Shown here piece after piece: positions 1,038 through 13,933 of a stretch of DNA of 64,000 nucleotides. The stretch lies in NCBI GenBank assembly GCA_949299755.1, contig CASGBA010000004.1, forward strand, positions 62,001-126,000. Reading direction: 5' to 3'. The translations under genes and the position numbers were made by a program. The notes beneath the pieces were generated by a model. That model had not been told where the DNA came from. It saw nothing but the letters and a program-made list of their open reading frames with translations, and did no database searches. This stretch comes from an uncultured Treponema sp. (GTDB taxonomy: Bacteria > Spirochaetota > Spirochaetia > Treponematales > Treponemataceae). Every line of letters begins with the position of its first letter. Within the stretch, counting starts at the first letter, position 1.

Positions 1038-1766
1038 TCAAGCCCTGGACGGCAAAGCAGAAAGAACCGTTTCCTCAACCCGGGAAACAATTTCCTTCTG
1101 TTCATCCTTTGATAAGTTTTCAGTCATTACAGGAGGATGAATTGTCACAAAGACATCGGCCGGTTTAAGCCTGTTACTGCCTTCAAACAATTTCCAGGTA
1201 CCGTCAATTGACACCGGAATAATGGGGGCTCCGGATTTAAAGGCCAATTTAAAGCTTCCCGGCTTAAACGCCCCTGGGGTATCGCCCTTGCTCCTGTGCC
1301 CTTCCGGGAAAATCAACAGGGAATAACCCTTTTTTATCCTTTCAACAGCGCCTTCCATGTCTTTAACGGATTGGTGGGGGCTTTTCCTGTTCAAAAAAAC
1401 GCATTCCATCAATTTCATCCAACCGGACAGAAAAGGCACCTTCAGTATTTCAACCTTTGCGATAAAAGCCATCGGTTTTTTCACATATCCGAGAAGGACA
1501 GGGATATCCATATAACTCTGGTGGTTTGCTATAAACACAACGGCTCTGTCCATGGGCAGGTTCTCCTGTCCGGACACAGAAATTTTCGTTTTCTTGCCGG
1601 TTAAACCGACAACATATCTGGCCCACTCCTGAACCATAGGAGCAATTTGCTTATCACGTTCCTCAATATTGCCGGTTTTTTGCAGACGGAGCATTTTCCG
1701 CTGCTTCCCCTGCCTGATTATAAGATAAAAAAAGAACCTTATTACCGCAAAAATTGTTTTAATCAT
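1038..1766 (-). CDS. plsC: 1-acyl-sn-glycerol-3-phosphate acyltransferase
   Basis: A 242-residue membrane-bound acyltransferase that adds the second acyl chain to lysophosphatidic acid to give phosphatidic acid. It shows the PlsC block I motif with H82 and D87 (NHQSYMD) and block III FPEGHRS at 153-159, followed by the conserved PVSIDGTW segment. A hydrophobic N-terminal stretch (about 5-18) probably anchors it to the inner face of the membrane. It is the last gene of the leftward fatty-acid operon, 25 bp after the TPR gene, which places acyl use next to acyl synthesis. Family assignment is firm; acyl donor specificity (ACP or CoA) cannot be read from the sequence. Confidence 0.92.
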   Translation of the reverse strand: MIKTIFAVIRFFFYLIIRQGKQRKMLRLQKTGNIEERDKQIAPMVQEWARYVVGLTGKKTKISVSGQENLPMDRAVVFIANHQSYMDIPVLLGYVKKPMAFIAKVEILKVPFLSGWMKLMECVFLNRKSPHQSVKDMEGAVERIKKGYSLLIFPEGHRSKGDTPGAFKPGSFKLAFKSGAPIIPVSIDGTWKLFEGSNRLKPADVFVTIHPPVMTENLSKDEQKEIVSRVEETVLSALPSRA

Positions 1767-2514: not shown

Positions 2515-3465
2515 CTAATTCGCTGAACTTTCTATTCCTCCGTCATCATCATAAAAAGCCCCGGATTCCCGGATTTTTTTATTACGGTATTTCACAAGAA
2601 CTTCCGGATTACGTCTGCACAAATCCGATAAATCAGAAATAATTCTTTCCCGGATAGCTTTTGCAGTCATATGGGGATCACACTGGGCTCCACCTTCCGC
2701 TTCCGGAATCACTCCGTTTATAACCTTCAAGCCTAAAACTTCCCGGCTTGTGATTTTCATCATGGCAGCGGCATCTTTTGCACGGGAAGAATCCCTCAAA
2801 AGAATAGAAGCGCAACCTTCAGGACTTATTACGGAATAAATCGCATTTTCCAGCATATAAATCTTATCGCCCACTCCTATACCCAGGGCACCGCCGGAAC
2901 CGCCTTCACCGATAATAATACAAATGATAGGCGTCTTAAGTCTGCTTAATTCCCTCAAATTGACAGCAATGGCTTCACCAATCCCCCTCTCTTCCGCAGC
3001 CAATCCAGGATAAGCGCCCTGGGTATCAATAAAGGTGATTATGGGCCGTTGGAATTTTTCAGCCTGTTTTGCCAACCGGAGGGCTTTCCTGTATCCTTCA
3101 GGATTCGACATACCGCCGTTGCGTTCTATTGTCTCTTTCAAGGTACGGCCCTTCTGGTTGCCGATAATTGTAACAGCAAGTCCGTCGATAAAACCTATTC
3201 CTCCGATCATTGCCGGATCATCGCCAAAAAACCGGTCACCGTGAAGCTCCACAAAATCATCACAGATAAGCTCTATGTAATCCAGTGTTCTAGGCCTGTC
3301 GCTGTGTCTGGCAAGTTCAACCCGCTCCCAAACTTCAGAAACAGCTTTTTCACTTGTCTGGAATTTTTCCGTTATTTTTCCAAGTTCTTCGCTTATATCC
3401 AATCCGCTTTGTTTTGCCAGTACTTGTAGAGAATTAATCAAATCCTGCTGGTTATCTTTTCCCAT
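2515..3465 (-). CDS. accA: Acetyl-CoA carboxylase, carboxyltransferase subunit alpha
   Basis: Together with AccD this forms the carboxyltransferase that moves CO2 from carboxybiotin to acetyl-CoA, giving malonyl-CoA. Family segments are plain: DRPRTLDYIELICDDFVELH, GDRFFGDDPAMIGGIG, the oxyanion-hole region IIGEGGSGGALGIG, and SPEGCASILLRD. I chose the ATG at 3465 because GGAGG sits 7 nt upstream and the overlap with accD is then 14 bp. An ATG at 3492, nine codons earlier, also has an AAGGA and gives 325 residues with a 41-bp overlap, so it remains possible. Overlap with accD implies translational coupling of the two subunits. Confidence 0.95.
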   Translation of the reverse strand: MGKDNQQDLINSLQVLAKQSGLDISEELGKITEKFQTSEKAVSEVWERVELARHSDRPRTLDYIELICDDFVELHGDRFFGDDPAMIGGIGFIDGLAVTIIGNQKGRTLKETIERNGGMSNPEGYRKALRLAKQAEKFQRPIITFIDTQGAYPGLAAEERGIGEAIAVNLRELSRLKTPIICIIIGEGGSGGALGIGVGDKIYMLENAIYSVISPEGCASILLRDSSRAKDAAAMMKITSREVLGLKVINGVIPEAEGGAQCDPHMTAKAIRERIISDLSDLCRRNPEVLVKYRNKKIRESGAFYDDDGGIESSAN

Positions 3466-4309
3466 TTTCGCCCTCCGGTTTTCTTTGCTCATGGGTTTCC
3501 TTGTTTTTTAAATCAAAAAGTATTTCTCTTTTCACAGGATAAGAAGGAACGGACTGCATATGGGCATCTATCATTTTAACGAAAAAAGCCCTTTGCTCTT
3601 TCCTGGGAACAATACAATCCACAAATCCTTTTTGAAGCTGGAATTCCGAGCGCTGGAAACCCTCCGGCAACTTCTGGCGGATTGTCCCTTCAATTACGCG
3701 GGGACCGGCAAAGCCAATAAGGGCTCCAGGTTCCGCACAAATTAAATCACCGAGCATGGCAAAACTTGCTGTAACACCGCCGGTCACCGGATCGCAAAGC
3801 ATTATAAAAAGGGGGATTCCCGCTTTATCCATTTCCGCCGCAGCGCTGGAGGTTTTTGCCATCTGCATCAGGGAGAAAAGCCCTTCCTGCATACGGGCAC
3901 CTCCGGATGTTGCATAGATGATAACAGGAAGAGCCTCCGCCGCCCCTGTAAGCATAAGCCTTGAAATTTTCTCGCCTACAACAGAACCCATTGATCCACC
4001 CATAAAGGCAAAAGACATAAGAGCGATAAGAGCCGGCCGTTTTTCTATAGTACAATAACCGGTAATAACAGCGTCCGACATATTTGTTTTTTCCTGGGCG
4101 GCGGAAATTTTCTCTTCGTAGCCTTCCATTTCTATGGGATTGGCGCTTTTCAGATTCTTATACAGTTCTAAAAAGGAATCTTTATCCACAAGATATGCAA
4201 GCCTTTGAGCAGGTTCCATCCGCAAATGGGTTCCACATTCCGGGCACACACACAGATTTTCTTCCAGAATCTTATTGTCTATATTGATTTTGCAATGGGT
4301 ACATTCCAT
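3452..4309 (-). CDS. accD: Acetyl-CoA carboxylase, carboxyltransferase subunit beta
   Basis: 285 residues. The N-terminal four-cysteine zinc ribbon is visible (C3, C6, C22, C25), followed by the crotonase-fold carboxyltransferase domain with SFAFMGGSMGSVVGEKI and SGGARMQEGLFSLMQMAKTS, which are diagnostic for AccD. It pairs with AccA, whose gene overlaps the 3' end. AAGGAAGG lies 5 nt before the ATG. It sits 11 bp after accC, completing an accB-accC-accD-accA run; in many bacteria accBC and accAD are split between loci, so the full set here is a compact arrangement. Confidence 0.95.
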   Translation of the reverse strand: MECTHCKINIDNKILEENLCVCPECGTHLRMEPAQRLAYLVDKDSFLELYKNLKSANPIEMEGYEEKISAAQEKTNMSDAVITGYCTIEKRPALIALMSFAFMGGSMGSVVGEKISRLMLTGAAEALPVIIYATSGGARMQEGLFSLMQMAKTSSAAAEMDKAGIPLFIMLCDPVTGGVTASFAMLGDLICAEPGALIGFAGPRVIEGTIRQKLPEGFQRSEFQLQKGFVDCIVPRKEQRAFFVKMIDAHMQSVPSYPVKREILFDLKNKETHEQRKPEGENGKR

Positions 4310-4320
4310 AAATCCTTCCT

Positions 4321-5640
4321 TCAGCTATTGCCGAATAATTCGGCATATAAGCCTGTTCCAAATTTTCCGGATAAAAATTGGGGAGATGTCAGAATTTTCT
4401 TCTGCTCCTCTATGTTTGTAGGCACTCCGTCAATTTCAAGCTCATCCAAGGCTCTTAAAAGTCTTTTTACGGCCCGTTCCCTGGTACTGTCATGGACAAT
4501 AAGTTTTGCTATCATCGAGTCATAAAAAGGCACTACAGAATAACCGGTATACACAAAAGTATCAAACCGTACCCCAGGTCCTCCGGGGACATTAAGTTTC
4601 TTTATTAATCCGGGAGAGCGCGCATTGATTCTGGCTTCAATGGCCCAGCCTCTTATATCATTCACGCCTTCCGCGGCTTCCATGGGTAAACCGGCACAAA
4701 CCCCGATTTGATCCCTGATAATGTCTGAAAAAGTGACAAGCTCTGAAACAGGATGCTCAACCTGAACACGGGCATTTACTTCCATGAAGAAAAACTCATC
4801 GCCTGCGGCCAAAAACTCAATGGTTCCAGCCCCCCTGTATTTTAAGGCGGAAAAAAGAGACAAGGCCCCGGAACACATTTTTTTCCGCATCTCCGGAGAA
4901 ACTCCCGGAGAAGGACTTTCCTCAATAAGCTTTTGATGGTTTTTCTGCATGGAACAATCCCGTTCACCCAATACAGCGACTCCGCCTTTTCCGTCCCCCA
5001 AAACCTGAAGTTCCACGTGCCTGGGATTCACAAGGTATTTTTCAATATAAACGGTTCCGTCCGCAAAATTAGCCTGGGCTTCGGAAGAGGCGATTTTAAG
5101 ATTTTCCGCCAAATCCTTTGCCTCATAAACAATGCGCATTCCCTTTCCGCCGCCTCCAGAAGCAGCCTTGATAATCACAGGGTAGCCGCATCGCTCAGCC
5201 ACTTTCAAAGCTTCTTTTTCGGAAGAAACGGCCCCGTCGGAACCGGGGGTCACCGGAAGGCCGTGGGCGGAAGCGGTTGCCCTCGCCTGAACCTTGTCCC
5301 CTAAAAGCTCGATGGTTTCGGCTTCCGGACCTATCCAAATCAACCCGGCTTTTTTCACCTTTGAGGCAAAGCCGGCATTTTCTGACAGAAAACCCACCCC
5401 GGGATGGACGGCATCACATCCGGTTGCCAAGGCTGTGGTTATATAGGCGTCCGCATTCAAATAGCTTTTTGCGGAAGGCGGGGCTCCAATACATACAGCC
5501 TTATCCGCCAATTTTACATGGAGATTTTCCTTGTCCGCCGTAGAATAAACCGCAACGGTTTTTATGCCCAACTCACGGCAGGCTCTTATAATGCGGACAG
5601 CTATTTCTCCCCTGTTTGCTATCAATAATTGCTTTATCAT
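4321..5640 (-). CDS. accC: Acetyl-CoA carboxylase, biotin carboxylase subunit
   Basis: ATP-grasp enzyme of about 439 residues that carboxylates the biotin on AccB using ATP and bicarbonate. It begins with the canonical MIKQLLIANRGEIAVRI, has the glycine-rich ATP loop GGGGKGM near 162-168, the FMEVNARVQVEHPVSE metal and active-site segment, and the RINA motif (IEARINARSP). The start is the ATG at 5640, which overlaps the accB stop as TGATG, with AGGA 7 nt upstream; a TTG three bases earlier is less likely. A minor variation is HPGVGFLSEN where most homologues have HPGYGFLSEN. Confidence 0.95.
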   Translation of the reverse strand: MIKQLLIANRGEIAVRIIRACRELGIKTVAVYSTADKENLHVKLADKAVCIGAPPSAKSYLNADAYITTALATGCDAVHPGVGFLSENAGFASKVKKAGLIWIGPEAETIELLGDKVQARATASAHGLPVTPGSDGAVSSEKEALKVAERCGYPVIIKAASGGGGKGMRIVYEAKDLAENLKIASSEAQANFADGTVYIEKYLVNPRHVELQVLGDGKGGVAVLGERDCSMQKNHQKLIEESPSPGVSPEMRKKMCSGALSLFSALKYRGAGTIEFLAAGDEFFFMEVNARVQVEHPVSELVTFSDIIRDQIGVCAGLPMEAAEGVNDIRGWAIEARINARSPGLIKKLNVPGGPGVRFDTFVYTGYSVVPFYDSMIAKLIVHDSTRERAVKRLLRALDELEIDGVPTNIEEQKKILTSPQFLSGKFGTGLYAELFGNS

Positions 5641-6146
5641 CAATTTTTCCTGACAAGGAACAAAGGTTGTTCAAATTCCACCAAATCACCGTTATGAACG
5701 AGAATTTTTTGGATTGTGCAATCAAATTCGCATTCAAGTGTATTCATCATTTTCATGGCTTCAAGAATGCAAAGAGGATCTCCCTTTTTAATAGATTTGC
5801 CCTCTTCCACATAAACAGGGGAATCGGGGGAAGGAGCCCGGTAAAAGGTTCCGACAATCGGACTTTTTATCTGAACCAAGGACGGATCCTCTCCGGCTTC
5901 CGGGGATTTTTCGGGAGCGGGAACCGGACCCGCCGACGGGGCAGGAGGAACCGGGGCGGAACCTGCCTGGGGTGCGGCAGAAACAGGGATAAAACCGGGC
6001 TGTGCGGGAAACGCCCCTTTGGGAAGCCTGTCAAAAGCCTCTTTTTTCTTGAGCACCAGTTTATCCTCGCCCTGTTTTACCTCAAGGGAAACCGCCGGAC
6101 TAGTATTGAATTTTTCTATCAGTGAAAGGATAAAATTCTCGTTCAT
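5640..6146 (-). CDS. accB: Biotin carboxyl carrier protein of acetyl-CoA carboxylase
   Basis: 168 residues. An N-terminal helical part (1-35), a Pro/Ala-rich flexible linker (about 45-85) and a C-terminal biotinyl domain with the acceptor motif EAMKMMN, in which K132 is the biotinylated lysine. The protein carries carboxybiotin between AccC and the AccAD complex. Its stop overlaps the accC start by one base (TGATG). It follows fabV by about 15 bp in the same operon. Length and domain order are normal for AccB. Confidence 0.95.
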   Translation of the reverse strand: MNENFILSLIEKFNTSPAVSLEVKQGEDKLVLKKKEAFDRLPKGAFPAQPGFIPVSAAPQAGSAPVPPAPSAGPVPAPEKSPEAGEDPSLVQIKSPIVGTFYRAPSPDSPVYVEEGKSIKKGDPLCILEAMKMMNTLECEFDCTIQKILVHNGDLVEFEQPLFLVRKN

Positions 6147-6161
6147 TTTGACTCCTTTAAA

Positions 6162-7352
6162 TTAAACGCAGTCCAACCTGGGGACATCTTTTTCATAGTC
6201 CACACCCGCAATATCGAATCCGCTTGTGGCCAGGAAATCATGTTTATATCCGGCCAAGTCCGCCAAGTCCGTGATGTTCTCTGCGGTAACATCCGGCATA
6301 ATCGAAGAAACTTCCGCCTGGACAGAGGGATCCATTTCCCAATCGTCTATACGGATACGTTTTTCCTCATCAACCGGAATGGAAGAACCGGTATACAACC
6401 TATCTGTAAACAACCTGTTAATCTGTTCGATACAACCTTCGTGGGTTCCCTTTTTCTTCATCACTTTGAAAAGAACGGACAGATAAAGCGGTATAATCGG
6501 GATAACAGCGCTTGCCCTGGTTACGAGCCCTTTGTTTACAGAAACATAGGCACTTCCTTTATAGGCTGCCATTTCCTTGTTAAGCTCGGCGGCTGTTTTT
6601 TCCAGATGCTCTTTTGCCTTTCCAATTGTCCCGCGCCTGTAAATAGCCTGGGAAAGCTCCGGACCCACATAGGAGTATGCAACAGTGATTACACCTTCCG
6701 CAAGAACCCCTCCTTCGGACAATCTGGAAATCCAGCGTTTCCAGTCCTCTCCGCCCATAACCTTAACAGTCTGGTTTATTTCATCTTCTGTCGCAGGTTC
6801 AGCGGAAATCTCCTTCATTTCTCCGGTCATGGGGTCAAAGGTTTTCCCGGAAAACGGGCTTCCGATGGGTTTTATGACAGATTTATACATAACACCGGTG
6901 TCGGGATCCGTCCGGACAGGACTGGCCAAACTGTAAACAACCAAATCAAACTTCATTCCACGGGCCTTCGCCGCATTTATAACCTCTTCTTTCAGTCCAT
7001 CGGAAAAAGCATCCCCATTCAAGGTCTGGGAAAACAAACCCTCTGCGGCAGCGGCCTCATCAAAGGCAAGATTATTGTACCATCCGGGAGTACCTCCCTT
7101 GTTTTCCGTTCCAGCCTTTTCCAAAGAGACACCGATTGTATCCGCCCCGTATCCGAAAGCTGCGACAATGCGGCTTGCCAGGCCATAACCGTTGGAACAG
7201 CCTAATACAAGAACATTTTTTGCACCGGCGGAATAATTCTTTTTTTGTTTTTCGTTTTTAACATAAGCAATTTGATCCATCACGGATTTTTTGCATCCGG
7301 CGGGATGGGCATTAAGACAAATATTACTGCGTACCATGGGTTTTATAACCAT
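6162..7352 (-). CDS. fabV: Enoyl-ACP / trans-2-enoyl-CoA reductase, FabV/Ter type
   Basis: About 396 residues, an NADH-dependent reductase that removes the double bond in the last step of each elongation cycle. Evidence: near-N-terminal MVRSNICLNAHPAGCKK, nucleotide-binding GCSNGYGLASR (about 51-61), YSLASPVRTDPDTG, and the FabV active-site motif Tyr-X8-Lys (Y238 to K247 in YRRGTIGKAK). The sequence is very like the well-studied T. denticola trans-2-enoyl-CoA reductase. I prefer the second ATG (7352): GGGAG is 7 nt from it but only 1 nt from the first ATG at 7358. It is the only enoyl reductase in the cluster (no fabI, fabK or fabL), so it probably serves fatty-acid synthesis here. Confidence 0.93.
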   Translation of the reverse strand: MVIKPMVRSNICLNAHPAGCKKSVMDQIAYVKNEKQKKNYSAGAKNVLVLGCSNGYGLASRIVAAFGYGADTIGVSLEKAGTENKGGTPGWYNNLAFDEAAAAEGLFSQTLNGDAFSDGLKEEVINAAKARGMKFDLVVYSLASPVRTDPDTGVMYKSVIKPIGSPFSGKTFDPMTGEMKEISAEPATEDEINQTVKVMGGEDWKRWISRLSEGGVLAEGVITVAYSYVGPELSQAIYRRGTIGKAKEHLEKTAAELNKEMAAYKGSAYVSVNKGLVTRASAVIPIIPLYLSVLFKVMKKKGTHEGCIEQINRLFTDRLYTGSSIPVDEEKRIRIDDWEMDPSVQAEVSSIMPDVTAENITDLADLAGYKHDFLATSGFDIAGVDYEKDVPRLDCV

Positions 7353-7387
7353 TTTCATTCTCCCTTAATAAATATATATTTTCCTGT

Positions 7388-7813
7388 TTATTTTCCGACA
7401 AGACACATCCATTCCGCTTCTGCGGCGACTTCGTCTCCCACATAGGCCACACCGGACTGCTTTATCATTCTGGGGGAAACCCGAAGGTTTTTCACTTCCA
7501 CCCGGACAGTGTCCCCGGGCCGTACCTGGCGGCGGAATTTCACTTTATCCACCGTTCCCAGGAAAAACAGGGAACCTTCCGGGAAAACTTTCTGGGAGCT
7601 TAAGGCAGCCCCGCCGCACTGGGCCATGGTCTCCACGAGAATAACTCCAGGAACAACGGGATATTCGGGAAAATGCCCCTTGAAGAAAAAGTCTTTATCC
7701 GTAAAAGTCCTCAAAGAAACGCTTCCGTCTTTGTCAGCGCTTACAATTTCATCCACAAACAGAAACGGATCCCTGTGCGGGAGCAAATCTTTTATATTTT
7801 TTATACTGTCCAT
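7388..7813 (-). CDS. fabZ: 3-hydroxyacyl-ACP dehydratase
   Basis: Hot-dog-fold dehydratase of about 141 residues that removes water from 3-hydroxyacyl-ACP. It shows LLPHRDPFLFVDEI and the catalytic-helix region FFKGHFPEYPVVPGVILVETMAQ, with the family His (GHFP) and the Glu of ETMAQ. The ATG at 7813 is favoured because GGAGG lies 4 nt upstream and the protein then begins as FabZ normally does; an ATG 11 codons earlier (7846) overlaps the fabF stop (TAATG) with AGGA upstream and cannot be excluded. No fabA is present, so unsaturated fatty acids are either not made by that route or are made elsewhere. Confidence 0.93.
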   Translation of the reverse strand: MDSIKNIKDLLPHRDPFLFVDEIVSADKDGSVSLRTFTDKDFFFKGHFPEYPVVPGVILVETMAQCGGAALSSQKVFPEGSLFFLGTVDKVKFRRQVRPGDTVRVEVKNLRVSPRMIKQSGVAYVGDEVAAEAEWMCLVGK

Positions 7814-7845
7814 ATTTCCTCCGTGATCAAATTTACCGGTGGGCA

Positions 7846-9102
7846 TTAAATCCTGCGGAAAACAACAACACCGTTGTGACCGCCAAATCCAAGAGAACCG
7901 GAAGCGGCGCAGGAAATTCCTCCGCTGTTTGAAACATCCACACCCTTGTTCGGAACATAATCCAAATCGCAGCCATGCTCAACGTCAGGGTTATCAAGAT
8001 TGATTGTGGGAGGGTAGAATCCTTCCTGAATAGCTTTTACACAGAAAATAGCCTCAATGGCTCCTGCGGCACCAAGACAGTGGCCGGTCATGCTTTTTGT
8101 GGAAGATATTTTCATTTTGTAAGCATGATCACCGAAAGCCTTTTTTATCATGGCGGTTTCCGCCGGGTCGTTTAGAGGGGTTGCGGTTCCATGGGCATTG
8201 TAGTACTGGACTTCCTCCGGAGAAATCCCCGCGTCTTTAATCGCATTCACCATGGCCAGAGCCCCTCCGTTTCCTGAAGGATCCGGGCTGGTAATGTGAT
8301 ATGCGTCCGATGAGCCGCCATATCCGGCGAATTCAGCGTAAATGCGGGCTCCCCTGGCCTTAGCGTGTTCATACTCCTCGAGAATAAGGATACCGGCTCC
8401 TTCGCCCATAACAAATCCTTCCCGCTTGGTATCAAAGGGTCTGCTGGCTTTTTCGGGACAATCGTTAAAGGAAGTTGCCAGGGTTTTCAAAACCTGGAAA
8501 CAGCCGATTCCGTATCCGGTCACAGTGGCCTCGGTTCCTCCCGCAAGACACACATCAAGCCGTCCGGAACGCACCTGATCCAAGGCAAGACCAAGGGCAT
8601 CTGTTCCGGAGGAACAAGCCGTGGCCAGAGAAAGGGCGGTTCCGTGGAGACCGAAAATCATACTTATGTTTCCAGGAGCCTCGTTCGGAATCAACATGGG
8701 GATACTGAGGGGCGGGATTCTGGTATTTCCGACTTCAAAATATTTCTTTATCGAAGCCTCAAGAACCTCGAATCCGCCAATACCATTACCGATAAGAACA
8801 CCGGCACGGTCGGCGTCTATGTTGTCTTTGGATAATCCGGCATCCTTCATGGCCTGCATGGCGGCGACAACCGCAAACTGGGAATACCGCCCCATTTTCC
8901 TGGCTTCTTTTTTGTCTATCCACAGACTCGGATCAAAGTTTTTAACCTCTCCGGCTATTTTACATTCGTAGGCAGTTGTATCAAACGCTGTTATTCTCGC
9001 AATTCCGCTTTTTCCTTCCCGGACAGACTTCCAGCTTTCTTCCAGAGTATTTCCTATAGGAGTAACTGCGCCCAAACCAGTAATGACAACCTTTCTATTC
9101 AT
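7846..9102 (-). CDS. fabF: 3-oxoacyl-ACP synthase II
   Basis: Condensing enzyme of 418 residues that extends acyl-ACP with malonyl-ACP. The KAS II catalytic triad is visible: C163 in TACSSGTDAL, H304 in NAHGTATPLND and H341 in MTGHCLGAAGA. The start at 9102 (MNRKVVITGLGAVTPIG) has AGGAG 7 nt upstream; the frame stays open 20 codons further upstream into fabG, but that extension lacks family similarity. It sits between fabG and fabZ. Confidence 0.96.
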   Translation of the reverse strand: MNRKVVITGLGAVTPIGNTLEESWKSVREGKSGIARITAFDTTAYECKIAGEVKNFDPSLWIDKKEARKMGRYSQFAVVAAMQAMKDAGLSKDNIDADRAGVLIGNGIGGFEVLEASIKKYFEVGNTRIPPLSIPMLIPNEAPGNISMIFGLHGTALSLATACSSGTDALGLALDQVRSGRLDVCLAGGTEATVTGYGIGCFQVLKTLATSFNDCPEKASRPFDTKREGFVMGEGAGILILEEYEHAKARGARIYAEFAGYGGSSDAYHITSPDPSGNGGALAMVNAIKDAGISPEEVQYYNAHGTATPLNDPAETAMIKKAFGDHAYKMKISSTKSMTGHCLGAAGAIEAIFCVKAIQEGFYPPTINLDNPDVEHGCDLDYVPNKGVDVSNSGGISCAASGSLGFGGHNGVVVFRRI

Positions 9103-9139
9103 TTCTTGCTCCTTATATAAAAACAAGCCCGGCACAGAA

Positions 9140-9883
9140 CTATGCACCGAGCCCACCATCAATTCCCAGAACTTGTGCCGTTATGTATGAGGACATATCC
9201 GAAGCCAGAAAAACAGCACCATTCGCAATGTCAACAGGATTTCCCGCCCGTTTCAGGGGAATTCCTTTCAACCACTCATTACGGGCGTCCTCATTCACAG
9301 CCCTTGTCATGTCAGTATCAATGAAACCTGGGGCAATGGCATTAACACGGATTCCCCGCCCCCCGACTTCTTTCGCAAGGCTTTTTGTCAACCCAATCAA
9401 TCCGGCTTTACTTGCGGCATAATTAACCTGTCCTGCCTGGCCATGGAGACCCACAACACTCGACATATTTATTATTGAACCGCTTCTTTTTTTCACCATG
9501 TCCGAAGAGACGATTTGGGAAACAATAAAAGCGCTGGTTAAATTAACAGCAAGGACAGAATCCCAATCCTCCTTTTTCATCCTGAAAGAAAGGCCGTCCC
9601 TTGTGATACCGGCATTATTCACCAGAACATCAAAACCACCGGATTTTTCCAACGCATCTTTAATGACAGAAGAAAGCTCTTCCGCATTACCGGCATCGGC
9701 GCAAATTTCGTGGAAAGCCGAGCCTTTTTCGCCGGCAAATTTTTCAAGCTCTTCCCTGGCGGCAGAGGGTTTTGAGCAGAGCCCCCAAACTTCGGCTCCT
9801 TCCTCAAGAAAACGACATACAATTTCCTTTCCTATTCCTCTGGAAGAACCTGTAACAAGCGCTTTTTTTCCTTTCAGCAACAT
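9140..9883 (-). CDS. fabG: 3-oxoacyl-ACP reductase
   Basis: Short-chain dehydrogenase of 247 residues that reduces 3-oxoacyl-ACP with NADPH. Features: nucleotide-binding TGSSRGIG (11-18), NNAG (89-92), catalytic Ser about 141-142, Y155 and K159 in the YAASK motif, and the C-terminal VLGIDGG. GGAGG lies 5 nt before the ATG. Its place between fabD and fabF in the operon supports FabG over the many look-alike SDRs. The gap to fabD (50 bp) holds no gene. Confidence 0.95.
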   Translation of the reverse strand: MLLKGKKALVTGSSRGIGKEIVCRFLEEGAEVWGLCSKPSAAREELEKFAGEKGSAFHEICADAGNAEELSSVIKDALEKSGGFDVLVNNAGITRDGLSFRMKKEDWDSVLAVNLTSAFIVSQIVSSDMVKKRSGSIINMSSVVGLHGQAGQVNYAASKAGLIGLTKSLAKEVGGRGIRVNAIAPGFIDTDMTRAVNEDARNEWLKGIPLKRAGNPVDIANGAVFLASDMSSYITAQVLGIDGGLGA

Positions 9884-9933: not shown

Positions 9934-10890
9934 TTACAACTCAGAAATATTCTCAAAGGTGCAGCACGGAATCACAGGATGGTCTGCACCCAATTCTGTG
10001 TCTCTCCACAAACCACTTAAAACTTTTCCCGGGCCGGGCTCAATCAAAACCCAGTTGCTTCCCGAATCCGCGGAAATAATGTCCGCAAGTTCCTTTTCTT
10101 CACTTGTCCACAGAACACTTTGAATAAGGTGAAGGACAGCGAGTTTCTTTGCTTCCGCCCCGGAAGATATTTTTTTGCCGCTCACATTGGAGAAAAGGAG
10201 AATGGAAGGATCCCTGAATTCAACAGGTTCTATGATTTTTTCAAATTCCTCCGCCGCTGCCTTCATCAACGGGGAATGGAAAGGCCCTGCAACCGCAAGC
10301 CTGACAAACCGCCTTGCCCCGGCTTCCTTGAATTTGCCTTCCGCCTCGTCAAGCCCGTCGGCTGTTCCTGAAATCACTGTCTGCTTTACGCTATTCATGT
10401 TCGCGGCATAAACCCCTTCGCAGGAGGAGCAAATTTCCACGACTTTTTCCGGCGGAAGCCCGATAACCGCAGCCATTCCGGGTGCCCTTCCGGCAGACCG
10501 CCGGGCGATGTCATCGCAAACCCGCTGCATGATTTCCCCGCGCTGTTTGACGACACGCACCGTGTCATCAAAAGAGAGAACCCCGCCGACGCAAAGGGCA
10601 GAAAACTCCCCAAGACTGAATCCGGCGCAAGCGGAAGGCTTTATCCCTTTTTCTTCCAGAGCCGCGATTACGGAAAGGGAGGCGGCTGTTATAGCCAGCT
10701 GGCTGCGGTCACTGCGGGCAAGGATTTCCGCGGATGAATCCCGGAGCAGTGCCAGGATGTCTTCCCCAGCCGCTTCGGAAATGGAATCAATGCATTTCTT
10801 TGAGGCGACGGAAGCTTCATATAAATCCACCGCCATACCCTGAAATTGTGAACCCTGTCCGGGGAACAAGAAAGCATACTTTGTTACCAT
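9934..10890 (-). CDS. fabD: Malonyl-CoA:ACP transacylase
   Basis: 318 residues. It loads malonate from malonyl-CoA onto ACP. The N-terminal FLFPGQGSQFQGM and the nucleophile elbow with S92 (GFSLGEFSAL) identify FabD; most family members have GHSLGE, so residue 91 is Phe rather than His, a change also known in other FabD-like proteins. The second catalytic residue is the His in VAGPFHSPLM near 204. The start overlaps the fabH stop by 7 bp, and a GGAGGGGG stretch lies upstream. No acpP gene accompanies it. Confidence 0.94.
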   Translation of the reverse strand: MVTKYAFLFPGQGSQFQGMAVDLYEASVASKKCIDSISEAAGEDILALLRDSSAEILARSDRSQLAITAASLSVIAALEEKGIKPSACAGFSLGEFSALCVGGVLSFDDTVRVVKQRGEIMQRVCDDIARRSAGRAPGMAAVIGLPPEKVVEICSSCEGVYAANMNSVKQTVISGTADGLDEAEGKFKEAGARRFVRLAVAGPFHSPLMKAAAEEFEKIIEPVEFRDPSILLFSNVSGKKISSGAEAKKLAVLHLIQSVLWTSEEKELADIISADSGSNWVLIEPGPGKVLSGLWRDTELGADHPVIPCCTFENISEL

Positions 10891-11837
10891 ATGATGACAC
10901 CCCCTCCGTTTGTAAGACCGGATCCGAATCCGGCAACAATAATCCGCATTCCTTTTTTCAAAGTTCCCTTTTCTTCCAAAGAGGCAAGGGTCATCGGAAT
11001 GGAGGCGGAAGAAGTGTTTCCGTATTCTTCCATGTTAAATATAAATTTTGAAATAGGAAATGACAGCCTTTTTGCCGCAGCGGAAATAATGCGGGAATTA
11101 GCCTGATGGCAGACTATCATATCAATATCATCCAGCGTGATTGATTCTTTTTCCATCAAAGTTTCTATTATACTGGCAATGGAGGCAACAGCGAAATTGT
11201 ACACCGCATGGCCGTCCATTTTTATGAGCCCGCCGTGCTCGATGTAAAGAGACCTGGCTCCGGTTCCGACCGCACCGAGAACCACGGTCTTTAAGCCCCT
11301 GTTTCCACAGTCAGCGCCGGTGGCGGCAGTGTTCTCAAGAACAGCTGAACCGGATCCATCGCCAAAAAGAACACAGGTGGATCTATCCGACCAGTCCGCA
11401 ACCCTGGAAAGAATTTCTGTACTGCACACAAGAGCGTATTTCCATCCCTGCCTCTCCAAAAGGGCGGCCGCAGTGTCCGCCGCATATACAAAGCCGGAGC
11501 AGGCAGCGGTCAAATCAAAACACGCCGCCTTGTCGGCCCCCAGAGCCGCCTGAAGCAGACAGGCATCAGAAGGACATCCGCTGTACGTAGGTGTAGTTGT
11601 GGTAAAAATTATTAAATCAAGCATACCGGCGTTTATTCCTGCCGCCGTCAATGCTTTTTCCGAAGAGGCTGCCCCCAGCGTTGTGTTTGTATCTTCTTTG
11701 GAAACTAAAAATCTGCTTCCTATTCCGGTATGAGAACGTATCCACTCATCGGAAGTTTGAAGACTTTCGGGTAAGTCATCATTTTTTACCTTATTTTCCG
11801 GAACACACATCCCGATTCCTTTTACAACAACCGCCAT
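10884..11837 (-). CDS. fabH: 3-oxoacyl-ACP synthase III
   Basis: Initiating condensing enzyme, joining acetyl-CoA (or another primer) to malonyl-ACP. Catalytic triad: C113 (DLTAACSGFVYA), H244 (HQANSRI) and N274 (EYGNTSSASIP). With the ATG at 11837, GGAG lies 5 nt upstream and the protein is 317 residues. An ATG at 11861 is in frame but has no ribosome site and lies close to the palindrome described separately. It is the first gene of the leftward fatty-acid operon, so its upstream region probably controls all twelve genes. Confidence 0.94.
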   Translation of the reverse strand: MAVVVKGIGMCVPENKVKNDDLPESLQTSDEWIRSHTGIGSRFLVSKEDTNTTLGAASSEKALTAAGINAGMLDLIIFTTTTPTYSGCPSDACLLQAALGADKAACFDLTAACSGFVYAADTAAALLERQGWKYALVCSTEILSRVADWSDRSTCVLFGDGSGSAVLENTAATGADCGNRGLKTVVLGAVGTGARSLYIEHGGLIKMDGHAVYNFAVASIASIIETLMEKESITLDDIDMIVCHQANSRIISAAAKRLSFPISKFIFNMEEYGNTSSASIPMTLASLEEKGTLKKGMRIIVAGFGSGLTNGGGVIIW

Positions 11838-11868
11838 AGCAACTCCATTAGTCACATCCATTACGACA

Positions 11869-11897
11869 GTTTGACAAAATTTATAATTTTGTCAAAC
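11869..11897 (-). promoter_or_regulatory. Perfect 13-bp inverted repeat, putative operator of the fatty-acid operon
   Basis: The arms GTTTGACAAAATT (11869-11881) and AATTTTGTCAAAC (11885-11897) match perfectly around a 3-nt spacer. The site lies 31 bp upstream of the fabH ATG. On the minus strand it is preceded by TTGACA (11935-11930) and TATAGA, but their 22-bp spacing is poor, and by a TATAAT farther up. TTTGAC/GTCAAA half sites are reminiscent of, not identical to, FabT-type operators. The regulator is unknown and is not adjacent. It could instead form an mRNA hairpin in the leader. Confidence 0.6.
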
Positions 11898-12062
11898 AGC
11901 TCTATACTCTGTATCTTTTTCCAGATAGTGTCAATACGAAGTCGATTATACATGAATTCCTGAGAAAAAAACAGATTAAAATTATTCCGTAAAGGGAAAC
12001 CGCCATATTTTTAAAACCATAAAAAACTTCATGAAATATTAAAAGTACCGATGCCTCAAATA
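11898..12062. other. Intergenic region between the fatty-acid operon and metY
   Basis: AT-rich spacer with no credible gene. On the minus strand it holds possible promoter elements for the fabH operon, including a TATAAT in the stretch catgTATAATcg, but none with a convincing -35 at standard spacing. The only further structure I see is the metY terminator at its far end. Confidence 0.5.
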
Positions 12063-12090
12063 AAAACCCGGGCTTAAAGCTCCGGGTTTT
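12063..12090 (-). terminator. Intrinsic terminator of the metY-like gene
   Basis: Arms AAAACCCGG (12063-12071) and CCGGGTTTT (12082-12090) with an AT-rich loop, followed on the minus strand by a T-rich run (TTTTTATTTG). It starts 5 bp after the stop of the leftward metY-like gene. Confidence 0.8.
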
Positions 12091-12095
12091 CAAAA

Positions 12096-13373
12096 CTAAA
12101 CCGCTGCAAGGGCTTGCTCAATATCGGCTATAATATCATCCACATGCTCGAGCCCGCAACTGAAGCGAACCATTCCTCCGTCAATCCCCGCCACCACAAG
12201 CTGGGCATCGGTAAGCTGCCGGTGGGTTGCGCTTGCAGGATGAAGAACACAGGTTCTTATATCAGCCACATGAACCTCGTTGGAAGCCAGTTTCAAGGCA
12301 TCAGTGAATTTCATGGCCTTTTCCCTGCCACCTTTTATGGAAATGCAGACAACACCACTTGTTCCTTCCGGCAAATATTTATCCGCCAGTTTTTTATATT
12401 TATCGCCAGGCAAAGCAGGATAATTAACCGCCGCAATTTTATCAGATTTTAAGAAATATTCGGCGACTTTAAGTCCGTTCTCACAATAGCGTTTCATCCT
12501 TACAGGAAGGGTTTCCAATCCCAAATTCAGCAAAAAGGCGGAATGGGCGGCGGGATAACAGCCGAAATCACGCATAAGCTGCATCCTGGCTTTTATGATG
12601 AAGGCAGCTTTCCCAAAGGTTTCCACGTACTTTATCCCATGATAACTTTCATCCGGTTCGATAAAATCCCCAAAGGCACCGGTTTGTTTATAAGCCGCGG
12701 CCCAGTCAAAATTTCCGGAATCTATGATTACACCTCCGGTTTGAAGTGCATGTCCATCCAGATATTTTGAGGTTGAATGAACAACAATATCCGCTCCCCA
12801 AGAGAAGGGACGACATAAATACGGGGTCGCAAAAGTATTATCGATAATAAAGGGAACATGATGATTGTGGGCGATACGGGCCAGTTTTTCAATATCGCAG
12901 ACATTTAATGAAGGATTTGTCAGTGTTTCCCCAAAAACCGCCTTTGTGTTTTTTTTGAACACAGCGTTTATTTCTTCTTCGGAACTGTCTCCGTCAATCC
13001 AAATACATTCAATTCCGAACCGTTTTAACGTGACGGAGAACAAATTAATGGTGCCACCGTAAAGGGAATTCATAGCGACAAAACTATCCCCGGCAGAACA
13101 AAGATTCAAAATGGAAAGCAGGGAGGCTGCCTGGCCGCTACTGGTAAGCATTGCTCCGACACCGCCTTCCAGAGCCGCAAGCTTTTTTTCCACAGCATCG
13201 CAGGTCGGATTGGCGAAACGCGAATACATATATTCCGTGGGCATATTGAAAAGATCCGCAATATGCTCAGTTGAATCAAACCTGTATGTTGTACTTTGAA
13301 CAATCGGCATTACTCCGGGACCACCGTTTTCCGGTTTATAACCCTCATGTAAACATTGTGTCTCTATTTTCAT
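12096..13373 (-). CDS. metY: O-acetylhomoserine sulfhydrylase (Cys/Met metabolism PLP enzyme)
   Basis: 425 residues of the Cys/Met-metabolism PLP family. Family features: SRFANPTCDAVEKKLAALEG, the PLP-contacting SSGQAA segment, the IIDNTFATPYL segment and the Schiff-base lysine K203 in VVHSTSKYLDGH. Length and the RPFSWGADIVVHS block match O-acetylhomoserine (homocysteine synthase) enzymes better than methionine gamma-lyase, which is about 400 residues. The reaction would be O-acetylhomoserine plus sulfide giving homocysteine; a lyase side activity cannot be excluded. GGAGG lies 5 nt before the ATG. It is monocistronic, with its own terminator. Confidence 0.85.
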   Translation of the reverse strand: MKIETQCLHEGYKPENGGPGVMPIVQSTTYRFDSTEHIADLFNMPTEYMYSRFANPTCDAVEKKLAALEGGVGAMLTSSGQAASLLSILNLCSAGDSFVAMNSLYGGTINLFSVTLKRFGIECIWIDGDSSEEEINAVFKKNTKAVFGETLTNPSLNVCDIEKLARIAHNHHVPFIIDNTFATPYLCRPFSWGADIVVHSTSKYLDGHALQTGGVIIDSGNFDWAAAYKQTGAFGDFIEPDESYHGIKYVETFGKAAFIIKARMQLMRDFGCYPAAHSAFLLNLGLETLPVRMKRYCENGLKVAEYFLKSDKIAAVNYPALPGDKYKKLADKYLPEGTSGVVCISIKGGREKAMKFTDALKLASNEVHVADIRTCVLHPASATHRQLTDAQLVVAGIDGGMVRFSCGLEHVDDIIADIEQALAAV

Positions 13374-13483: not shown

Positions 13484-13933
13484 ATGACACAAAAAATGAC
13501 AGCCTCGAAAGAAGACTATCTTGAAGCTATCCTCGATTACGAAAATGGAGAAGGTAAAACCCGATCAATAGATATTGCAAGAGCCTTGAATGTATCCCGG
13601 CCGAGCGTAAACAAAAGTCTTTCAGTCCTTAAAGAAAGCGGGCTTGTGGAACACGAACGGTACGGAGAAATAAGTCTGACAAAAGAAGGCAGGGCTCTGG
13701 CAAAATACGTAAGAGAGCTACATGATACCCTCAAACTTTTCCTGACAGATGTTCTTAAAATTCCCGCTGAAATTGCGGAAACAGATGCCTGCCGGATGGA
13801 GCATGCCATAAGTAAAACCACAGCCGACAGTCTTAAAAAATACCTCCAGAAAATTCTGCCTAAAAAAACAGCCCCGGCCGGAGGAATTAAATCCGCCCCG
13901 TTAAAACACGCCAAAGGCAGGGGTACGGAATAG
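13484..13933 (+). CDS. DtxR/MntR/TroR-family metal-dependent transcriptional regulator
   Basis: 149 residues. The N-terminal winged helix-turn-helix is typical of iron-dependent repressors: SKEDYLEAILDYE, RSIDIARALNVSRPSVNKSLSVLKESGLV, then ERYGEISLTKEGRALA. A dimerisation helix region follows (about 75-125), with candidate metal ligands including C and E in DACRMEHAIS. The C-terminal 20 residues are basic and low in complexity; no SH3-like domain is present, so it is of the short MntR type. No metal transporter adjoins it, so the target and the metal (Mn, Fe or Zn) are unknown. Its start codon lies 6 nt after a -10 box with no ribosome site. Confidence 0.85.
   Translation: MTQKMTASKEDYLEAILDYENGEGKTRSIDIARALNVSRPSVNKSLSVLKESGLVEHERYGEISLTKEGRALAKYVRELHDTLKLFLTDVLKIPAEIAETDACRMEHAISKTTADSLKKYLQKILPKKTAPAGGIKSAPLKHAKGRGTE

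Follow-up and report, generated by a model that had tools for sequence, protein, structure and literature searches.

Locus and palindrome

The window, by which we mean the whole 64-kb stretch of DNA analysed, carries on its minus strand a row of fatty-acid synthesis genes that begins with fabH, runs on through further fab genes and an acc block, and closes with a plsC-like acyltransferase gene (Table 1). The most likely start of fabH is the ATG at 11837-11835, behind the GGAG at 11843-11846; a longer fabH from the ATG at 11861 finds no support in the sister genomes. Positions 11869-11897, 31 bp from this start, read GTTTGACAAAATT-TAT-AATTTTGTCAAAC, and the perfect 13-bp arms, 3-nt spacer and distance to fabH given in the original prediction are exact in the sequence. 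A metB/metC-like gene (12096-13373) on the same strand as fabH ends upstream of the palindrome, and the inverted repeat AAAACCCGG/CCGGGTTTT is its likely terminator. Divergent from this gene is an MntR/DtxR-like metal regulator gene (13484-13933, plus strand), which was set aside as a reader of the palindrome, being two genes away and matching manganese-regulator models best.

The low chance expectation claimed for the palindrome was borne out, as dinucleotide shuffles of the window (n = 30) gave a mean of 0.067 perfect repeats of its size. It is the sole perfect inverted repeat in the window with arms of at least 13 bp and a gap of at most 10, and it is single-copy in the 2.35-Mb genome with up to three mismatches allowed. 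A search for similar DNA in phages returned no matches. Only this genome has arms that match over the full 13 bp; across genomes, it is TGACA-N13/14-TGTCA that is conserved.

Table 1. Features of the palindrome region and the fab-acc gene row, in window coordinates.
Feature	Position	Strand	Basis
Perfect palindrome, 13-bp arms, 3-nt spacer	11869..11897		sequence, shuffles, genome search
Conserved operator core TGACA-N13-TGTCA (putative), A/T-rich inner flanks	11872..11894		order-wide motif
TATAAT, -10-like, upstream of palindrome; conserved in 3 genus genomes	11945..11950	-	consensus match only
TTGACA, -35-like, poor -10; conserved in 3 genus genomes	11929..11934	-	consensus match only
Inverted repeat, likely terminator of upstream gene	12063..12090	-	repeat search
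GGAG, fabH ribosome-binding site	11843..11846	-	sequence; conserved in L003, L004 (sister genomes)
fabH, first gene of operon	10884..11837	-	NCBIfam PRK09352, 328 bits (cut-off 249)
fabD	9934..10890	-	ORF; TIGR00128, 237.6 bits, slightly below cut-off 260.9
fabG	9140..9883	-	ORF; by sequence reading
fabF, start uncertain	7846..9162	-	ORF; by sequence reading
fabZ-like	7388..7846	-	ORF; by sequence reading
FabV-like enoyl reductase	6162..7358	-	ORF; by sequence reading
acc gene block accB-accC-accD-accA	2515..6146	-	ORFs
accB	5640-6146	-	ORF; by reading
accC	4321-5643	-	ORF; by reading
accD	3452-4309	-	TIGR00515, 325.8 bits, over cut-off
accA	2515-3492	-	ORF; by reading
plsC-like acyltransferase, end of gene row	1038..1766	-	ORF; by reading

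Conservation ahead of fabH

The palindrome was compared among its own genome and two other genomes of the genus. One of these (G002, FabH 87% identical) keeps it as GTTTGACAAAATTATATTTTTTGTCAAAC, and the other (G001, FabH 74% identical) has TTTCGACAAAATCATGAAATTTGTCGAAA, in which the two arms have changed in step (TTTCGACA...TGTCGAAA). Across the genus, the outer ten bases stay symmetric and the centre is variable. At the family level, fabH upstream regions read from about 50 genomes revealed TGACA-N13-TGTCA, sometimes N14, in most cases, embedded in widely divergent flanking sequence, with a half-site base profile of A-N-N-W-TGACA-W-W-W-T. Shuffles of the fabH upstream sequences gave an expectation of 0.04 sites. 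Among these family upstream regions, no gap between TGACA and TGTCA other than 13 or 14 nt was enriched, and the halves never occurred in direct-repeat order.

In genomes with acpP in front of fabH (G096, G107), the site lies ahead of acpP. In genus g3, the site is found upstream of the apparent fabH promoter and its -35 element, beside a divergent operon for a ferredoxin/2-oxoacid oxidoreductase; enzymes of this type could presumably provide FabH with branched acyl-CoA primers. The g3 fabH upstream regions (L050-L061) also contain extra copies, TGTCA-ATT-TGACA-TAT-TGACA, besides the putative operator.

A TetR-type protein as candidate reader

The genome encodes a TetR-type protein at C1:65053-65643, outside the window and behind an RlmKL-like methyltransferase gene. 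A search with the TetR protein encoded beside fabD in G050 and G071 recovered one strong orthologue (E <1e-56) in almost all genomes of the family; it is missing from genera g15 and g20 and from three genomes of lower completeness. The same two genera lack the site at fabH. Of the 38 TetR-positive family genomes, 28 have an inverted TGACA/TGTCA pair no more than 300 bp from fabH, with a gap of 13 nt (n = 25) or 14 nt (n = 5); none of the 11 TetR-negative ones does (Fisher p 1.2e-5, for related genomes that are not independent and represent about two losses, g15 and g20). Some TetR-positive genomes have degenerate fabH sites or none. Members of g15 and g20 (G016, G041, G021, G042 and others) are devoid of both tetR and fabH sites; g15 retains the TTGACA promoter at fabH with the second half-site gone, and g20 includes a reduced genome of 1.1 Mb. 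Within the order Treponematales, 171 of 197 genomes and 68 of 75 genera carry the TetR protein, and every orthologue match in a phylum-wide sample fell inside the order.

Gene neighborhoods place the regulator close to the site in a few genomes. In G050 and G071, of a g3 clade, the site lies between the TetR-family gene and fabD, and exact-core sites precede the rlmL-tetR pair in G050, G071 and G051. Most genomes examined, the present one included, have no exact site by the tetR gene. An RlmKL-like rRNA methyltransferase gene followed by tetR was observed in nearly all genomes inspected (here L144, G000 C1:60059-70643).

The protein itself has the features of a TetR-family member, namely a TetR_N helix-turn-helix domain (PF00440, which the G050 orthologue matches with 56 bits) and an all-helical fold, and TetR proteins fill its fold matches. 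The helix-turn-helix is nearly invariant (QKIADRCGITRTTLYxYFKNK), and the AlphaFold2 model comprises nine helices with a mean pLDDT of 89.7. The nearest solved relatives are Bacillus FadR proteins, 3whb by profile (E 2.4e-18, 69.8 bits) and, by fold, 3whb and 3whc, a stearoyl-CoA complex, with FadR also the best match by Foldseek E-value. Against the Bacillus-type FadR equivalog NF053878, this protein and the G050 orthologue score 51.8 and 65.8 bits, below the curated cut-off of 200. A long-chain acyl-CoA is a possible ligand, given the fold resemblance to 3whc.

Sites at other lipid genes

Sites were counted genome-wide with the strict pattern TGACAHWW-N7/8-WWDTGTCA, using the reversed pattern as a control. 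The 127 TetR-positive family genomes contained 504 sites versus 64 control matches, whereas the 15 TetR-negative family genomes contained 8 versus 1 (7 versus 0 and 1 versus 1 in the two TetR-negative genera taken separately). Outside the family, 126 genomes from other families of the order yielded 197 sites versus 16. Genes directly downstream of inspected sites are mostly lipid genes, including synthesis genes (fabD, fabF, fabG-like, FabV-like and acyl-CoA carboxylase), acyl-CoA ligases, acyl-ACP and acyl-CoA thioesterases, and FadL-like porins; in another family of the order, sites precede fabH, fabF and fabD. A cross-genome search of the kind proposed with the original prediction recovers the signal ahead of fabH and of other lipid genes. 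Other recurrent downstream genes encode iron-containing alcohol dehydrogenases (L096, L097, L102), an ECF transporter substrate component (L087, L194, L195) and a nitronate-monooxygenase-like protein (L091, L193).

In the genome under study, a second strict site lies 28 bp ahead of a gene for a FadL-like outer-membrane protein. A relaxed search allowing one mismatch returned 12 sites versus 8 for the control, and only sites conserved in sister genomes were retained; among these is one ahead of an acyl-CoA ligase gene that is present in all three genus genomes.

Proposed mechanism and alternatives

Overall, we consider it very probable, from sequence comparison, that the palindrome is the operator for a TetR-type lipid repressor shared across Treponematales, one that is probably acyl-CoA-responsive. 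The repressor encoded at C1:65053-65643 would bind the palindrome and control the fab-acc operon, reading TGACA-N13/14-TGTCA with A/T-rich inner flanks. Binding as two dimers is conceivable because the half-site centres are 18-19 bp apart. Several genomes use the left half, TTGACA, as the -35 element, and their right half continues into a -10-like CATAAT or TATTGT, so that the promoter would be covered by a protein bound there. In the present genome the palindrome site lacks a good -10, and both the promoter and the mode of action are uncertain here; the protein may instead occupy the start region, on the downstream side of the promoter. An operator that covers the promoter, or that lies at the transcript start as here, makes repression the likely sign of control. 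Occupation of the pocket by a long-chain acyl-CoA, or by some other acyl thioester, would then release the protein from the DNA, as in FadR.

The alternative that survives best, though we regard it as unlikely, is a lipid operator whose reader is a different DNA-binding protein, one that recognises half-sites set far apart, the TetR protein being only co-inherited. The wide spacing and the 13/14-nt flexibility are unusual for TetR proteins, the distance between half-site centres is wide for one TetR dimer, and an exact autoregulatory site is missing from most genomes. This reading keeps its small share of probability because the co-distribution of TetR protein and site depends on just two loss lineages. 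Arguing for the TetR protein as the reader are the g3 arrangement of tetR beside fabD with the site in between, the sites preceding rlmL-tetR in three genomes, and the fatty-acid regulators that are its nearest solved relatives. FapR is absent as a competing reader, and a FapR regulon was rejected: NF003359 has no match in this genome, and 60 family genomes gave no match above its cut-off.

Far less plausible is that the palindrome acts in the fabH leader as an RNA hairpin, whether an attenuator or a stability or translation element. The palindrome does sit between the promoter-like elements and the ribosome-binding site, and it folds at -11.6 kcal/mol (z -5.7), but conservation is limited to 5 bp and the A/T flanks, shuffled sequences fold as well as several of the orthologous sites do, and no stable paired stem is conserved across the orthologues. 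Furthermore, no T-run follows the palindrome, and the g3 site lies upstream of the apparent -35. That the palindrome arose by chance, or is an ordinary promoter element that no regulator reads, is suggested by the double role of TTGACA as a -35 in several genomes and by its survival without a second half in TetR-negative g15; this reading is of negligible probability and is refuted by the cross-genome statistics, namely the rarity of such repeats in shuffled windows, conservation of the inverted pair at a fixed gap far above shuffles, and the clustering of sites elsewhere than fabH at lipid genes.

Returning to the TetR-type repressor, the proposal of an operator for an unrecognised lipid regulator stands, supported by conservation at fabH, the sites at other lipid genes and TetR co-occurrence; its Treponema-wide extent needs revision, as the system is order-wide and absent from two family genera. 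We think it reasonably likely that this is a global lipid regulator of an entire spirochaete order, a TetR protein separate from FadR, FabR, FasR and DesT, with a two-dimer operator in which asymmetric TGACA elements are spaced by 13/14 nt, and that it couples fatty-acid synthesis, uptake and acyl activation and was lost in two family genera. The candidate regulator, its operator and the target list are now directly testable, and the model predicts that those two genera dropped this lipid control.

Comparison with known regulators

TetR-type fatty-acid regulators are an already known kind. In the open-access literature searched, which leaves most subscription journals outside, we found no paper on the regulation of fatty-acid synthesis in treponemes, nor any account of this TetR member, its operator or its order-wide regulon. 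The half-sites of FabT, a MarR-family regulator, lie about 3 nt apart. The palindrome has TTTGA/TCAAA ends and a fab operon target in common with FabT sites, but the conserved core is TGACA and the conserved gap is 13-14 nt. The FabT-type resemblance of the half-site noted in the original prediction is therefore superficial, and a FabT operator TTTGA-N3-TCAAA was rejected on spacing.

Bacillus FadR, a TetR-family acyl-CoA-responsive repressor of fatty-acid degradation genes, shares the TetR fold with the treponeme protein and likewise has lipid genes as targets, acyl-CoA ligases included. In contrast, the two proteins are only ~20% identical, and the treponeme regulon is centred on the fab-acc synthesis operon and has a wider operator. 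The QacR operator, at which two TetR-family dimers occupy one long site, is a similarly long inverted repeat, and the treponeme operator could hold two dimers as well; the 18-19 bp half-site spacing is suggestive only of such binding, and QacR differs in sequence, targets and ligands. FadR from Sulfolobus acidocaldarius is a TetR-family lipid regulator, as proposed for treponemes, which can bind as one or two dimers, two being reported on one of its operators, and whose dimer is opened by ligand; it differs in its 16-bp motif and in targeting an archaeal lipid gene cluster (PMC6449355). Thermus thermophilus FadR is likewise a TetR-family lipid regulator with a palindromic operator, in this case of 15 bp, TTRNACYNRGTNYAA, versus TGACA-N13-TGTCA in treponemes (PMC5597230).
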